From NCBI RefSeq assembly GCF_900116295.1, contig NZ_FPAF01000005.1, forward strand, positions 62,001 to 126,000: a stretch of DNA of 64,000 nt, written 5' to 3'. Both the position numbers and the translations under genes were made by a program. The notes below the pieces were generated by a model. That model was not told the origin of the DNA, searched no databases, and saw only the letters and a program-made list of their open reading frames with translations. Positions 38,056 through 43,019 of this stretch are shown in pieces. This stretch comes from Bacillus sp. 103mf (GTDB lineage: Bacteria > Bacillota > Bacilli > Bacillales > Bacillaceae_G). Each line of letters opens with the position of its first letter. The stretch's first letter is position 1.

Positions 38056-38170
38056 CATGAAAAAAATATTCAATTATACAACCTCATGTGATAAGCGTTT
38101 TTGTAATGGGTCGCATATACTGTTATCGTCACATACTTAAAATCACGACTTGAAAAGGAGAGAGAGAGAC

Positions 38171-38317
38171 ATGACGAGAAAAAAGCAGCCCAAATACAAT
38201 ATAGGAGATATAGTCGTGATTACGTTATATGGTACCGTTGGTAAAGTCACAAATGTTAATTTTCTATTTTTATTGGTTATGTGTTATGAATTTAATATGA
38301 CACATTGGGGGCTATAA
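38171..38317 (+). pseudogene. yodN: YodN, 5' fragment (interrupted)
   Basis: A GGAG-rich ribosome site and ATG begin a frame MTRKKQPKYNIGDIVVITLY followed by GTVGKVTN, which matches the start of YodN-type proteins. After ACA AAT (38249-38254) the homology ends, and about 20 foreign codons lead to a TAA at 38315. The continuation of YodN resumes in frame at 41641. The fragment is the left target flank of the recombinase element. Promoter and ribosome site look intact, so a 48-residue peptide is probably made. Confidence 0.75.
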
Positions 38318-38318
38318 A

Positions 38319-39794
38319 ATGGCGTTGGCTGCTATGTATTTACGTTTATCTAGGAATGAAGAACAATTAGATATTGAGGATATCTTAACAAATCATCGAA
38401 ATGCTCTAATTAAACTTGCAAAGCAACATAAGTTGACATATGACATTTATCAAGAAATTTCGAGTGGTGTAAACATACAAAGACCTCAGCTGAATTTATT
38501 GTTAAGTAAATTAGATGAATACGATTATCTTTTGGTAATGGATATAGACCGGATTTCTCGTGACAATGCATATGCTGAACAAATTAAATCAGTGTTGATT
38601 GCACATGACATCAAAATATTAACACCACAGGGTGCTATTGATCTAAATCAAGAAAGTAATGAAATGTTATTTTCTTTTCAAGCAATGATGGCAAATTTTG
38701 AATATAAGCAAATTAAAAAGCGTTTGGGTCGAGGTCGATTGGCAGCAGCAGAACAAGGAAGATGGACAATGAGTAATAAGGCACCTTTGGGATATGAAAA
38801 GGACAAAAATCAAAGATTAGTCATTGTTGAGGATGAAGCAAAAATAATTAGATACATATTCCAAAAGACTTTAGAAAGAGTTAGTGCAAACGAAATAGCC
38901 AAAGAATTAGATTTGCTAGGTTGGAGGAGTAGAAGTGGTAAGGTTCTAACGACTTCTCATATCTCATCAATAAGAAGAAATGTTGTATATTATGGGGTAG
39001 TCAAAGCTTGTAGAAGGGTAAACGGGAGAGTTGTTGATGAGGTTTTTGTAGAAAATGCCCATCAACCAATCATCTCAAAGCAACAATGGTTAGAAGTTCA
39101 AAAAATACTTGAAGAAAACACAACAGGAAATTTTTTTAATAAAAGGAAAGTAACCCGAAGACTTCAAAACCTAATTTATTGTAATTGCTGTGGAAGAAAA
39201 AGATACATCCAAATTGATGGTAACGGAACTGATTTTATTAAATCTTGTTTTTACAAAATAAGCAATAATAAATGCAGAGATAGGGGACATAAGTATCTTC
39301 CTGTAGAAGATTACGTAATTAATAAGGTAAAAGAAAAGAAGGAGGATCTTGAAAAGACCATTCAGAAATTAAAATCTCTTGATATTACGGATGAAGAAAA
39401 TAAATTCCTTTCACAAATGGACTCATTAGAAAAGCAATTAGAAAGATATGAAAAGAGACAAAAAAATTTAACAATAATGAGAGCAGACGGGGAAATAAGA
39501 AAGAGTGAATTTCTTGTAATGAGTGAAGAGAACGAGGAACAAATCAAACAGGTTAAGCAACAGCTTGAATTAGTTGATATTCAATTAAAAAACTTGAAGA
39601 ATACAGATGAAGAACAACGACGGTTAGAAAAAATTATTGAAATGTTAGATAAGATAGAGACATATGACTCCGAAAACTGTAATGCTTTCTTTAAAACGTT
39701 CATAAAAAAAATCTGGTTCTCAACCAATGCGATTACAAATCATAATACAAAAAAAGAGGTTCCCGAAGTCATGATTGAAATCGAATGGCTATAA
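38319..39794 (+). CDS. Large serine recombinase/integrase
   Basis: This 491-residue site-specific recombinase has the catalytic Ser11 in AMYLRLSRNEE and the resolvase-fold segment LLVMDIDRISRDN. The Recombinase domain follows (APLGYEKDKNQRLVIVEDEA), then a zinc ribbon (YCNCCGRKR...SCFY...NKCRDRG) and a long coiled coil (about 345-445) as in phage-type integrases and SpoIVCA. It starts one base after the stop of the yodN 5' fragment, with GGGGG upstream, so it is likely transcribed from the yodN promoter. It should integrate and excise the surrounding element. Confidence 0.92.
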   Translation: MALAAMYLRLSRNEEQLDIEDILTNHRNALIKLAKQHKLTYDIYQEISSGVNIQRPQLNLLLSKLDEYDYLLVMDIDRISRDNAYAEQIKSVLIAHDIKILTPQGAIDLNQESNEMLFSFQAMMANFEYKQIKKRLGRGRLAAAEQGRWTMSNKAPLGYEKDKNQRLVIVEDEAKIIRYIFQKTLERVSANEIAKELDLLGWRSRSGKVLTTSHISSIRRNVVYYGVVKACRRVNGRVVDEVFVENAHQPIISKQQWLEVQKILEENTTGNFFNKRKVTRRLQNLIYCNCCGRKRYIQIDGNGTDFIKSCFYKISNNKCRDRGHKYLPVEDYVINKVKEKKEDLEKTIQKLKSLDITDEENKFLSQMDSLEKQLERYEKRQKNLTIMRADGEIRKSEFLVMSEENEEQIKQVKQQLELVDIQLKNLKNTDEEQRRLEKIIEMLDKIETYDSENCNAFFKTFIKKIWFSTNAITNHNTKKEVPEVMIEIEWL

Positions 39795-40112
39795 ATAGCT
39801 CCAATATTCTTACTGCTTATGGCATGATGAGTCATGCCATTTAAACTACCGGCTGAACAGAGGTATGTAATTCTAAAAGAAACGAGTTGTTTCCGAGGAT
39901 TATAAATTTACTTTAATTGAATCGATCAAGTTCAATGTGAAGTAGAAGACCCTAACTACAGTTATGTTTTTTGGATTCCTCCATTTGTTAAATATAAAAA
40001 GTTGAAGATAAATGGGATGCAAGTCTTATGAGACATTGTGACAAACTGTACTTCAACAAAAACAGCTTAATAGTTTGTCAATATTTTTTAAATAGGAAAG
40101 GAGATTTAAATC
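39795..40112. other. Intergenic part of the element with hairpins and a decayed fragment
   Basis: ATGGCATGA/TCATGCCAT (39824-39845 region) forms a 9-bp stem with a TGAG loop but little T run. A protein-like fragment (CEVEDPNYSYVFWIPPFVKY) reads at about 39936-40030 without a start. TGACAAACT (40039-40047) and AGTTTGTCA (40072-40080) form an inverted repeat upstream of the next gene and may be an operator or terminator. Confidence 0.4.
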
Positions 40113-40955
40113 ATGGGTGTTGAATCATTAAAGAGCAAAATGCTAACGAAACCACATAAATTTACAGCTGGAATAGAAGGTCCTTCATGTGATAAAAAAG
40201 GGAATATTTACGCTGTTAACTTTAAAAAATCAGGCACGATTGGCAAAGTAACTCCAAATGGGAATAGTAGTGTCTTTATTGAACTGCCTAAGGGTAGTAT
40301 CGGAAGCGGGACACGTATTGACCGTAATGGAACTTTGTTCATTGCAGATTATGTTAAACATAATATATTCGCAGTTAATATTGAAACAAAAGAAATAAGA
40401 GTGTTTGCTCATAACCCTGATATGAACCAGCCTAACGATTTAGCGATAACCAATCAAGGTGTTTTATTCGCTAGTGATCCCAACTGGAGCGAATCAACAG
40501 GACAATTATGGCGTATTGATAAAAACGGGGTCACTCATTTATTAGAAACCAATATGGGAACGACTAATGGAATTGAAGTGAGCCCTGATGATAAAAAACT
40601 ATATGTAAATGAAACAGAGAAAAGAAAAATATGGGTATATGATCTATCAAGTAACTACGAATTAAGTAATAAACGCTTACTTATAGAGTTTACCGATTTT
40701 GGACTTGATGGGATGCGTTGTGATATGGCTGGAAATTTGTTTGTAACTCGCATTGGCAAAGGTGTGGTGGCAAAGGTATCACCTGATGGTCATCTTCTAA
40801 GCGAAATTCACTTTACCGGAAAAAAATGTAATAACCTTACATTTGGAGGCCCTGATGGAAAAACCTGTTATGTGACAGTAGCTGATACAGGAAACATTCA
40901 AATGTTTCAAACAGATGTACCTGGAAGGTGTTGGAGTTTACTGCATGATAGATAA
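40113..40955 (+). CDS. SMP-30/gluconolactonase-like beta-propeller protein
   Basis: The protein has 280 residues. Blade-like repeats (GNIYAVNFKK, GTLFIADYVKHNIFAVN, GVLFASDPNW, KKLYVNETEKRKIWVYD, GNLFVTRIGKGVVAKV) fit the six-bladed SMP-30 fold. Candidate metal ligands are Glu22 (IEGPSCD), Asn in QPNDLAI, Asn in TTNGIEVSPDD and Asp in LDGMRCD. Such enzymes hydrolyse lactones; the substrate is unknown. There is no signal peptide. It is the only intact cargo gene of the element, with a good GGAAAGGAG site. Confidence 0.8.
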   Translation: MGVESLKSKMLTKPHKFTAGIEGPSCDKKGNIYAVNFKKSGTIGKVTPNGNSSVFIELPKGSIGSGTRIDRNGTLFIADYVKHNIFAVNIETKEIRVFAHNPDMNQPNDLAITNQGVLFASDPNWSESTGQLWRIDKNGVTHLLETNMGTTNGIEVSPDDKKLYVNETEKRKIWVYDLSSNYELSNKRLLIEFTDFGLDGMRCDMAGNLFVTRIGKGVVAKVSPDGHLLSEIHFTGKKCNNLTFGGPDGKTCYVTVADTGNIQMFQTDVPGRCWSLLHDR

Positions 40956-41046
40956 GATTATTCCATATTATCTAACTGAACATGATTATTAGTTATGTAA
41001 TTTAGTAGATTGATAATGTGTGTGTATTTACCTGAATTTAAATAGT

Positions 41047-41205
41047 TAAGAGTTGTGATATACAACATCCAGACCAATGACTGGATTCATTCTAAATTTA
41101 GTGAGGTAATTGTTGAATGGAAAGTGTAGAAGGTGAACGCAAGTTGGACGCTGATTGAACAATGGTTACGGAAAAAAGGTTTTAAAAACAAATTTTGACT
41201 AAAAG
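41047..41205 (+). pseudogene. Decayed coding fragment in the element
   Basis: One frame reads protein-like from about 41047 (VVIYNIQTNDWIHSKFSEV), passes a TAG and continues in frame as NASWTLIEQWLRKKGFKNKF before a TGA. No start codon with a ribosome site fits. I do not recognise the family. Confidence 0.35.
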
Positions 41206-41298
41206 TTCATCGTCAATTATCGGAATTTTAAAGAGGGAAATCACTTCTCCAAGATACTGCTATATAGTTCGGACTGTTTCGGTGGGAGGAGGAGAAAA

Positions 41299-41526
41299 AT
41301 GGGGAATGATAACAAGGAAAAAATACGTTGAGACAAGATTCCAAACAAAAACTTCATGCATATTCTGCAACGAGGTGATTTCATTGTGAAAGTAAAATAT
41401 GGAGAAAGAGGAACCTTTGATCCGGTGAAGGCAGCCAAGGGACTAATTGAATTGTACAATAAGTTTAATAATCCGAATGTTCTAGATAATCAAGAAAATG
41501 ATAAAATAAAAGACAAACCAAATTAA
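41299..41526 (+). pseudogene. Small gene with an in-frame TGA near the right border of the element
   Basis: An ATG after GGAGGAG starts MGNDNKEKIR, then a TGA (41329-41331), then the same frame continues to VKVKYGERGTFDPVKAAKGL and ends at 41526 (75 residues plus the internal stop). A shorter 46-residue protein could start at GTG 41386 behind GAGGTGA. The position beside the right border and small size fit an accessory recombination gene, but I have no family match. Confidence 0.45.
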
Positions 41527-41640
41527 ACTCGTGTGCCACTAAGGTATACGGTTTTTCTTTTTTATTTACATTTACAAGGAGGCGATAACCTTTTAATCGT
41601 AAATGGTTATTCATCAAATAAATTTAGAAATATAACAAAT

Positions 41641-42219
41641 ATAAAAATACTAGATGGCGTTTATGTATACGAAGTGAACAATCACGATGGATTTTACGTA
41701 GAACATACATTACAGCTTGTGACGGAACAAGAAATGAAAGATGGCGAATCCGAGTGGATTGAACTGCACTATAAATTTACGTTTGGTGATCTCGTTCAAG
41801 TAACAGGCTATGAAAAAGATGTATTTCGTGTTGTTGGCTACCGGACGGAAGTATGGCGTTATAAAAATGATGCATGGGAAGATACAATTTATGAATTATC
41901 TCGTATTACAGATGGAGAGTGGCTAGAAGCGGATGAATCTGATTTGGCACTTATAGCGAATGCACAAACAGCAAATATCATTTTAAAGAAAATGAAACAA
42001 GATAAGGCAGGTATGAATAAGCTTGATTTAGGTAAATTAAAGTCTATTAATAATTCGAAAAAAGTAAGTATAAAAACGAATCGAAAAGAAATTATTGATG
42101 GTTTACTAGATATTTTTAATGATTACAGAACATTATATGAAACATTTCAAGATGAAGAGTATAAAATTGTGATGGAAGTTGTACGTAATTATTTAATCAA
42201 ATTATCCGAGAAAAAATAA
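41641..42219 (+). pseudogene. yodN: YodN, 3' fragment (interrupted)
   Basis: From 41641 the frame reads IKILDGVYVYEVNNHDG, then FGDLVQVTGYEKDVFRVVGY and the conserved WRYKNDAWEDTIYELSR, all typical of YodN, for 192 residues. It lacks its own start: the nearest in-frame GTG (41533) has no ribosome site, while an AAGGAGG at 41576 has no standard in-frame start behind it. Joined to the 28 codons at 38171 it would give a 220-residue protein, about the expected length. Function of YodN is unknown. Confidence 0.75.
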
Positions 42220-42376: not shown

Positions 42377-42530
42377 TGTGTTTTCCTCCTTTATATAGCT
42401 TGTACTACATGTTATGCAAAAGTGTCTTCTTGTATAACCTATATATCTAGTAAGAAAAGAAAAATGTTTTTCTATTGTTATACATAATTTCTATTTTTCT
42501 TCATAAAACAGAATTAAAGGGGTGATGCTC

Positions 42531-42716
42531 ATGAAGGAAATAGAGGTCGTGATTGATACGGAAGAAATTGCGGAATTTTTTTATGAGCAATTAATTGCGA
42601 GAGGTTATGTACCAAAGCGCGAAGAAATTGAAGATCTTGCAGATATTGCATTCGATTATTTGTTAGAGAAATGTATGATTGATGAAGTATTTGACGAAGA
42701 TGATGAAGGAAAGTAA
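42531..42716 (+). CDS. yozD: YozD-family small acidic protein
   Basis: This 61-residue protein matches YozD: MKEIEVVIDTEEIAEFFYEQ followed by ADIAFDYLLEKCMIDE. The ATG at 42531 has AAGGGGTGATG upstream; nine bases more (GTG 42522) would remove the spacing. Its place next to yodN matches B. subtilis. Function is unknown. Confidence 0.85.
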   Translation: MKEIEVVIDTEEIAEFFYEQLIARGYVPKREEIEDLADIAFDYLLEKCMIDEVFDEDDEGK

Positions 42717-42827: not shown

Positions 42828-43019
42828 ATGTTCAAAAAAATTATTGATTCTTTGCTAGGGAATAAACATAAGCACCACTCTTATTCCAGTAGTGATTATC
42901 GACATCGACATCGTTCGTATTCTAGCAGCGATCATCATAAGCATCGTCCATCTCATGGGTATGGGCATCATCATTATAAAAGAAAACATAAAAGTGGCAG
43001 TTTTTTCTCTAGTAGTTGA
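42828..43019 (+). CDS. Histidine/serine-rich basic peptide (63 aa)
   Basis: After a short amphipathic start (MFKKIIDSLLGNKHKHH) the sequence is a low-complexity alternation of His, Ser, Tyr, Arg and Lys (SYSSSDYRHRHRSYSSSDHH), with about a quarter His. It could bind metal ions or be a Ser/Tyr phosphorylation substrate. AGAGGTG precedes the ATG. Its stop codon overlaps the start of the protein kinase gene (TGATG), so both are on one transcript. Confidence 0.72.
   Translation: MFKKIIDSLLGNKHKHHSYSSSDYRHRHRSYSSSDHHKHRPSHGYGHHHYKRKHKSGSFFSSS

Follow-up and report, generated by a model that had tools for sequence, protein, structure and literature searches.

The gene yodN of Bacillus sp. 103mf is split in frame by a 3.4-kb element carrying a large serine recombinase (LSR), and comparison with its relatives suggests that the element belongs to a new gene-intervening family, which is probably excised from yodN in the mother cell during sporulation. 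The element lies in a stretch of 64,000 nucleotides (contig NZ_FPAF01000005.1, positions 62,001 to 126,000; hereafter the window), and its features are listed in Table 1. An earlier note on this DNA had drawn a parallel with sigK, spsM and gerE, and had left it undecided whether excision from yodN is programmed or the gene is simply dead. The parallel is well supported by insertion at the same codon in 22 of 23 genomes, attP-like arms, a conserved partner gene and purifying selection; on the second point, the sequence evidence leans towards programmed excision. The earlier note mentioned neither the small gene next to attR nor the multi-genus family with its varied cargo.

The split gene

The N-terminal half of yodN (N-half) runs on into element sequence and meets a stop codon at 38315–38317. 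The hexamer ACAAAT stands at both junctions in the same codon phase, making the split an in-frame one, and the insert measures 3,386 bp from core to core. These coordinates and this phase, put forward in the earlier note, were found again, and so was the LSR (PF00239, PF07508) that it had placed in the insert. The 220-codon frame that it had predicted after excision also agreed with our count: without joining the halves, 28 codons of the N-half and 192 of the C-terminal half (C-half) add up to 220, the same as in the uninterrupted yodN of a near relative, G141 (26 + 194). The identification of the gene as yodN was borne out by the NCBIfam equivalog model NF058646, "germination protein YodN", against which the C-half scored 238 bits (cut-off 180); it is solely this name that assigns yodN a role in germination. 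Comparison of the YodN C-half with solved structures gave no match below an E value of 0.8. Besides the LSR, the insert contains an SGL/SMP-30 gene (PF08450) and a right-end gene for a protein of 46 residues. The repeat at the attachment (att) sites was missed by a plain repeat search because it is too short, and a plasmid search with the 6-kb region returned short matches in nine records, none of which spanned the element.

The recombinase family and its insertion site

The LSR starts 64 bp past the core, and its best solved relative is SprA/YokA. When 84,980 species genomes were scanned for the LSR, 34 loci emerged, 14 of which (L001–L014) were close, with 61–90% identity; L015–L034 (25–27% identity) lay outside this close set and were not used. 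With a threshold of E ≤ 1e-60, whole-genome searches detected the LSR in 9 genomes of an order-wide sample of 397, in 14 of 193 genomes of one family, and in 9 of the 19 genomes of the Ectobacillus panaciterrae family; the three samples overlap, and with the best three or best eight candidates scored per genome, copies may be missed. Two genomes among the 14 (G456 and G512, LSR 31% identical) were left out of the LSR family, which comprises 23 genomes at about 59–90% identity.

In 22 of these 23 genomes, the yodN N-half is directly upstream of the LSR, and the cut falls at one and the same codon. Only G013 departs from this: its LSR is decayed and lies outside yodN, with the left arm still recognisable, and its yodN is uninterrupted. 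The named hosts among the 22 are Peribacillus, Robertmurraya, Neobacillus, Ectobacillus and Mesobacillus, along with three "Bacillus sp." The C-half was found in 21 of the 22 and shares a contig with the LSR in 16. The LSR frame was open in all 21 cases read, a set that includes the window and leaves aside the decayed LSRs of G012 and G013 and that of G578, which is divided between two contigs (the pieces being 67% and 49% identical). Scanning for sigma-70 promoters yielded 14 sites compared with 20.2 in shuffles, and because the sites are fewer than in the shuffles, nothing is claimed about the LSR promoter.

Nearly all genomes have yodN (189 of 193 in one family, 19 of 19 in the other), and therefore empty sites abound. 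The empty-site comparison that the earlier note had recommended was made in the family of 19, where yodN is uninterrupted in 10 genomes (8 read at the junction and 2 judged by their open frame). That note had suggested the B. cereus group as the reference; placement of the strain in this group is tentative, and the closest yodN among those found comes from Ectobacillus panaciterrae and its kin (81–82%). With inserts at the same codon in 22 other genomes and with the empty sites in hand, we rejected chance as the origin of the 6-nt repeat. Extra yodN matches in 13 genomes (G013 included) amounted to a decayed tandem copy in G014, a second broken piece in G012 and weak paralogues at 21–36%.

Two observations concern yodN copies elsewhere. 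G014 (L071) has two tandem right ends, each with a small gene, one followed by a decayed C-half and the other by an open one; these look like traces of a second or composite insertion. A shorter YodN paralogue (32–38% identity, mostly about 150 residues) that does not have the N-terminal part occurs in the G009 family at L050 and loci like it, and L050 scored 72.8 bits against NF058646, below the cut-off of 180.

Attachment sites

The element arm of attL was compared with the reverse complement of the element arm of attR in 21 elements (the window and G012 in; G001, G013 and G578 out). On average 18.0 of 22 positions matched (range 13–22; 17 in the window), compared with a mean of 9.3 and a maximum of 10.7 for shuffled arms in 1000 rounds, and with 8.0 for the host arms. 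The central dinucleotide is AA, as in the window, or GA, and is identical at both ends in 21 of 21. A symmetric attP and an asymmetric attB, as these arms suggest, are the pattern expected of an LSR. As in gene-intervening elements, the LSR is accompanied by attP-type arms, and a sporulation-related gene (so classed by its NCBIfam name only) is split in frame at a short direct repeat.

A small gene at the right end

The small gene of the window begins with GTG at 41386 and ends with a stop codon at 41524–41526. A small open reading frame (ORF) of this family, coding for 37–46 residues, occurs in the yodN elements of all 22 relatives as well as in the window, and precedes the C-half by 42–112 bp where both could be read together. 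It occupies the far end of the element except in G009, where it adjoins the LSR. The proteins form two groups, the window type and that of the small elements of the G011 clade, which have nine invariant columns in common, the start included. In the family of 19 genomes, all 9 with the LSR have the small gene and none of the 10 without it do; in the family of 193, the numbers were 11 of 12 and 1 of 181, the miss being G013 and the lone case G436. Of the family's own proteins, 17 went into the search profile, and because the presences are thus partly by construction, it is the absences that provide a real test of the association.

No useful match to the small protein was found in Pfam, PHROGs or NCBIfam, and none in phage records; a second search at the phage and plasmid level gave E values of 6–10 only, and the profile found no match in the final 14 kb of a phage of the SPbeta type. 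The small proteins are thus an undescribed family. We consider the protein a candidate recombination directionality factor and propose that it directs excision by the LSR, because the order attL-int-rdf-attR is described for spore-gene elements (PMC6957869) and because sprA and sprB alone are described as sufficient for excision in sporulation (PMC4191935).

Promoter-like motifs

The motif AC-N16/17-[CA]ATANNNT[AG] was found within 70 nt before the small gene in 18 of the 22 genes tested (the window and both G014 copies in; G001 and G009 out), whereas shuffled sequences gave a mean of 0.4 and a maximum of 4 of 22. The −10 part alone was present in 20 of the 22 (shuffled mean 3.9, maximum 9), and a footprint of 21 sequences displayed a conserved upstream block. 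The small gene of G009, read by eye, has the strict form of the motif. The window is among the four without the motif because it has no AC at −35. Upstream of yodN itself, CATANNNT[AG] occurs within 100 nt in 31 of 32 sequences, in 13 of which AC stands 16–17 nt before it, and in 28 of 29 further intact yodN copies that are top-scoring and closely related, with AC in 19 of the 29; neither count has a shuffle control. The motif before the small gene resembles mother-cell sigma-K or sigma-E promoters, and we infer that the gene would be under sigma-K- or sigma-E-dependent control.

Selection on the split gene and inheritance of the insert

Eight near relatives carry a small element in yodN (G011, G036, G192, G242, G264, G348, G577 and G578). 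The ratio of nonsynonymous to synonymous substitution rates (dN/dS) of their C-halves has a median of 0.006 (0–0.037; 28 pairs), as low as in three genomes of the same clade with uninterrupted yodN (0.018; 3 pairs). The N-halves (26–28 codons) are conserved, and those of the eight differ by one amino-acid change in one genome and several silent changes. Both halves of the split yodN are under strong purifying selection in this clade. The split C-halves of Neobacillus gave 0.031 (7 of 15 pairs finite). The C-half of the window has a dN of 0.12–0.14 with a dS above 1.5, near saturation, against four near relatives; the evidence for selection on both halves thus comes from the relatives and, for the window, only from comparison with distant kin.

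The LSR gave a dN/dS of 0.118 in the same clade (0.098–0.168; 21 pairs), 0.140 in other groups (10 pairs) and 0.131 in the set that includes the window (5 of 6 pairs finite). LSR and host distances correlate with r = 0.94, a value reached by 9 of 5040 permutations; the LSR ratio of the clade and this test used seven genomes, the C-half ratio eight. Because the distances correlate, we conclude that the insert has long been inherited together with a gene under selection. G012, a single case, is the only yodN element with a broken LSR: its LSR is frameshifted and its yodN contains stop codons. The cargo genes of seven small elements had ratios of 0.14–0.16, except for a phasin-like gene at 0.46, which has an in-frame stop in one of them.

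Size, cargo and mobility

Measured from core to core, the sizes of 17 elements are 3.4 kb (the window, the smallest), 4.7–4.9 kb (seven elements), 6.0, 14, 26, 28, 29, 30, 37, 37 and 48 kb. The small elements carry PhaP, PadR, an alpha/beta hydrolase and a protein without known family (families scanned in G011 only); homologues of this cargo were present in the seven small elements looked at, G578 being outside the set. The larger elements differ in content: G004 carries HsdR, HsdM and HsdS domains (type I restriction), and G008 carries a phage capsid gene and a prohead protease gene. The ORFs scanned were 27 of 28 in G004, 26 of 31 in G005, 29 of 54 in G010, 34 of 72 in G006 and G002 combined, and 3 of 15 in G008. 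Three viral records of 25–35 kb also have the LSR at one end, and all three contain a capsid gene; in two of them the yodN N-half precedes the LSR, while the third begins at the core. The IMG/VR prophage records end before the yodN C-half.

Other cargos were observed as follows. G005 (L057–L058) holds a BREX set (BrxA, BrxB, BrxC, PglX and PglZ). The cargo of G538 (L167 5360–9187) consists of GerA, permease and GerAC genes, to which the filter used added no further ORF of 60 codons, and G010 (L063 10991–14682) has GerA and GerAC with sugar-related genes. G002 (L053 11923–15353) has a row of YhcN/YlaJ, SpoVAC, SpoVAD and a DUF421+DUF1657 gene.

The window LSR groups with those of G001, G002 and G003 (support 100/99). 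The window C-half groups with the G009 family (100/100), apart from G002 and G003; G001 is without a C-half. G002 and G003 themselves have near-identical LSRs and very different yodN. Because the LSR and C-half groupings disagree, the element must have moved between lineages.

Relation to known systems

The literature searched comprised open-licence papers. The earlier note knew of no description of an interrupted yodN, and none appeared in these papers, which name sigK, spoVFB, spoVR, spsM, gerE and yabG as interrupted spore genes; LSR catalogues (PMC10083194) may hold unnamed members.

The yodN elements resemble SPbeta in spsM in having the LSR at one end and a small (here candidate) directionality factor at the other, int and rdf being at opposite ends in SPbeta and phi3T (PMC6957869). 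They also resemble it in that a sporulation gene is split and, in most of them, a putative mother-cell-type sigma site is directly before the small gene, as before sprB in SPbeta (PMC4191935), and in that SprA is the LSR's best match among solved structures. In contrast, the yodN-element LSR is about 29–31% identical to the best SPbeta-type records, the target is yodN, the window element is some 37 times smaller than the 126-kb SPbeta-type record, and the integrase is the sole phage-like protein among the window-element proteins scanned. An SPbeta-like prophage was rejected as the identity of the window element, since no phage family but the integrase was found among the proteins scanned and the LSR was less than 60% identical to all 504 phage records matched.

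The element gin in gerE of B. cereus ATCC 10987 is likewise a non-phage element in a sporulation gene, with an LSR and a factor of 42 residues, and is excised in sporulation (PMC5595907). It differs in its size (28.6 kb), its three recombinases and its target; the comparison of GirX with the candidate factor of the yodN elements is one of size. The window element was rejected as a copy of gin, for it has one recombinase and sits in yodN, not in gerE with girA, girB, girC and girX. The elements skin (sigK; C. difficile and B. subtilis), vfbin (spoVFB), vrin (spoVR) and yin (yabG) share with the proposed yodN system the LSR-driven rebuilding of a mother-cell gene. Their targets are different, and the yodN element spans several genera with many cargos, whereas yin is reported as unique (PMC10747680).

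The cargo row of G002 has the make-up of spoVA2mob on Tn1546, which is described as carrying a spoVA operon (PMC5133452), with "2Duf" being a DUF421+DUF1657-type protein (PMC10126465). The G002 set differs in lying inside an LSR element in yodN, and the likeness is one of gene content.

Proposed mechanism and alternatives

The insertion site, the att arms, the intact LSR, the conserved small gene with its LSR association and the selection on both halves can be read directly from the DNA. We propose that a minimal unit for site-specific recombination, built as attL – LSR – cargo – small directionality factor – attR, has inserted itself into yodN. The gene would remain split during growth. When sporulation is well advanced, a sigma factor of the mother cell (K-type, or E) would switch on the factor of 46 residues, which together with the LSR would recombine attL with attR at ACAAAT and release a circle. 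A continuous yodN would then be made in the mother cell, soon to lyse, while the forespore copy would retain the element, so that the element would be inherited. The excision itself and its confinement to the mother cell are what we infer here.

Several points weigh against this proposal. The strict form of the motif precedes only 4 of the 22 small genes, and the window gene has the −10-like box CATATTCTG only, with the −35 AC missing. Sigma-K and sigma-E sites overlap and cannot be told apart by sequence here. The transcript start predicted about 12–15 nt before the start codon of the small gene makes for a tight leader; a leader of 14 nt, from a sigma-E site, is described for CD1234 of skin-Cd (PMC5025042). 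The small gene evolves loosely (median dN/dS 0.46; 0.24–1.06, 21 pairs), and a small-gene-like stretch occurs in G436 (L206) without this LSR. The equality of the central dinucleotides is partly dictated by the codon of the host gene. In five genomes the C-half is on a contig other than that of the LSR, and presumably flanks the same element, and in G001, which has the LSR and the small gene, the C-half is not in the assembly and the contig stops near the right end of the element. Finally, the C-half branches of G002 and G003 are long (0.4 and 0.7), and that of the window (0.2) is the longest of its subclade, which could reflect relaxed constraint. Apart from these points, we observed that the stretch in G436 lies near an ORF that by its look is methyltransferase-like, and that the yodN of G436 is uninterrupted.

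Ordinary mobile-element excision, random or damage-induced, might instead restore yodN in a few cells, the split being tolerated as yodN matters little. The prophage look of some relatives fits this explanation, given the capsid gene in all three LSR-bearing viral records and in G008 and the ability of such elements to excise on damage, and so does the movement of the window-element LSR between families. We nevertheless find it unlikely in view of the very strong selection on both halves in the small-element clade, the sigma-K-like promoter before 18 of the 22 small genes tested, and the long vertical keeping of the 4.7–4.9-kb versions.

It is more doubtful still that yodN of the window strain is a dead gene, inactivated by an immobile remnant. 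The window element is indeed the smallest of the 17, it contains IS110-type remnants and its small gene has no −35 AC, and its C-half has the longest branch of the subclade. On the other hand, the LSR, the small gene and both yodN halves are open, both att sites are present and all are in phase; the dN of the window C-half is small beside its dS; and where the LSR is broken, as in G012, decay of yodN is visible. It is scarcely credible that, with no excision, each half works as a polypeptide of its own: the window C-half could begin at a GTG that lies in frame at 41533, but independent C-half expression was rejected because the open frame before the C-half spans 7–31 codons (3 in the decayed tandem L048) with no start common to the 12 split relatives read, and the N-half of 26–28 codons is still conserved.

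Besides excision in the mother cell, we tend, with somewhat less assurance, towards a broader reading, in which yodN would be a standing dock, in at least five named genera, for LSR-plus-factor cassettes that carry spore-line traits (germinant receptors, the spoVA2mob-like set) as well as defences against phages (BREX, type I restriction), with the small forms tamed and passed down. As excision would take place only in the mother cell, which is doomed, yodN would be repaired where it is needed, and the cargo would be kept by the spore lineage.

Other features of the window

The gene order is kamA, yokU, yozE and then the split yodN. The earlier note had taken yozE, yozD and kamA as neighbours. 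YozE, like YokU, was assigned by family match, and kamA stood by alignment, its frame being 81–88% to the equally placed ORF of relatives and aligning to a record annotated as ablA, lysine 2,3-aminomutase. The name YozD for the ORF at 42522–42716 is an assumption of that note; none of the NCBIfam models matched this ORF, which is nevertheless conserved at its place in relatives. A small ORF at 42828–43019 is very rich in histidine and serine, and presumably resembles a spore-coat protein.

Within the element, the SMP-30 gene sits between IS110-type remnants of 60 nt and 34 nt (40032–41097), the latter covering the first transposase codons. The remnants were matched to two transposase-bearing copies in the G002 element. 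It looks as if an old insertion sequence (IS) had had its middle part exchanged for the SMP-30 gene.

Table 1. Features in and around the yodN element (positions in the window)
Feature	Position	Strand	Evidence
−10-like element CATATACTG upstream of yodN, sigma-E/K type, conserved	38114..38122	+	Motif in relatives
yodN N-half, 28 codons including junction ACAAAT	38171..38254	+	N-half conserved upstream of LSR in relatives
attL; core ACAAAT 38249–38254, central dinucleotide AA, element arm 38254–38275	38230..38275	.	Arm symmetry with attR
LSR, 491 residues, SprA-like	38319..39794	+	PF00239/PF07508; phrog_95 integrase; SprA/YokA E 1.1e-21
IS110-type element end remnant, left of SGL gene	40032..40091	.	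82% over 57–60 nt
Cargo SMP-30/gluconolactonase (SGL) gene, 280 residues	40113..40955	+	PF08450, E 1.1e-42
Remnant of IS110-type transposase gene start, right of SGL gene	41064..41097	.	91–94% over 34 nt
−10-like element CATATTCTG upstream of small gene; TC in place of relatives' usual −35 AC	41359..41367	+	21-sequence footprint; motif counts
Candidate recombination directionality factor, 46 residues, GTG start, GAGGTG before	41386..41526	+	Kept in 22 of 22 relatives' yodN elements
Terminator-like hairpin and T-run, element right end	41529..41551	+	Similar stretch at some relatives' right ends
attR; element arm 41616–41637, core ACAAAT 41635–41640	41616..41661	.	Arm symmetry with attL
yodN C-half, 194 codons and stop	41635..42219	+	NF058646, 238 bits; dN 0.12–0.14, dS > 1.5

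Implications

If the proposal is true, the few known bacterial developmental gene rearrangements would gain a new target gene and a family of small proteins not described before. A single dock and a single proposed enzyme pair recur in 22 genomes, which represent at least five named genera, in elements of 3.4 to 48 kb with unrelated cargos, and these form a natural series that ranges from the size of a prophage to a unit of two genes plus one cargo gene. In G538 and G010, genes for a GerA-type germinant receptor ride inside the insert of a germination gene. The elements make the role of yodN in spores testable and provide new pairs of LSR and attB. Our results also suggest that a split yodN should not be called a pseudogene before an element has been looked for.

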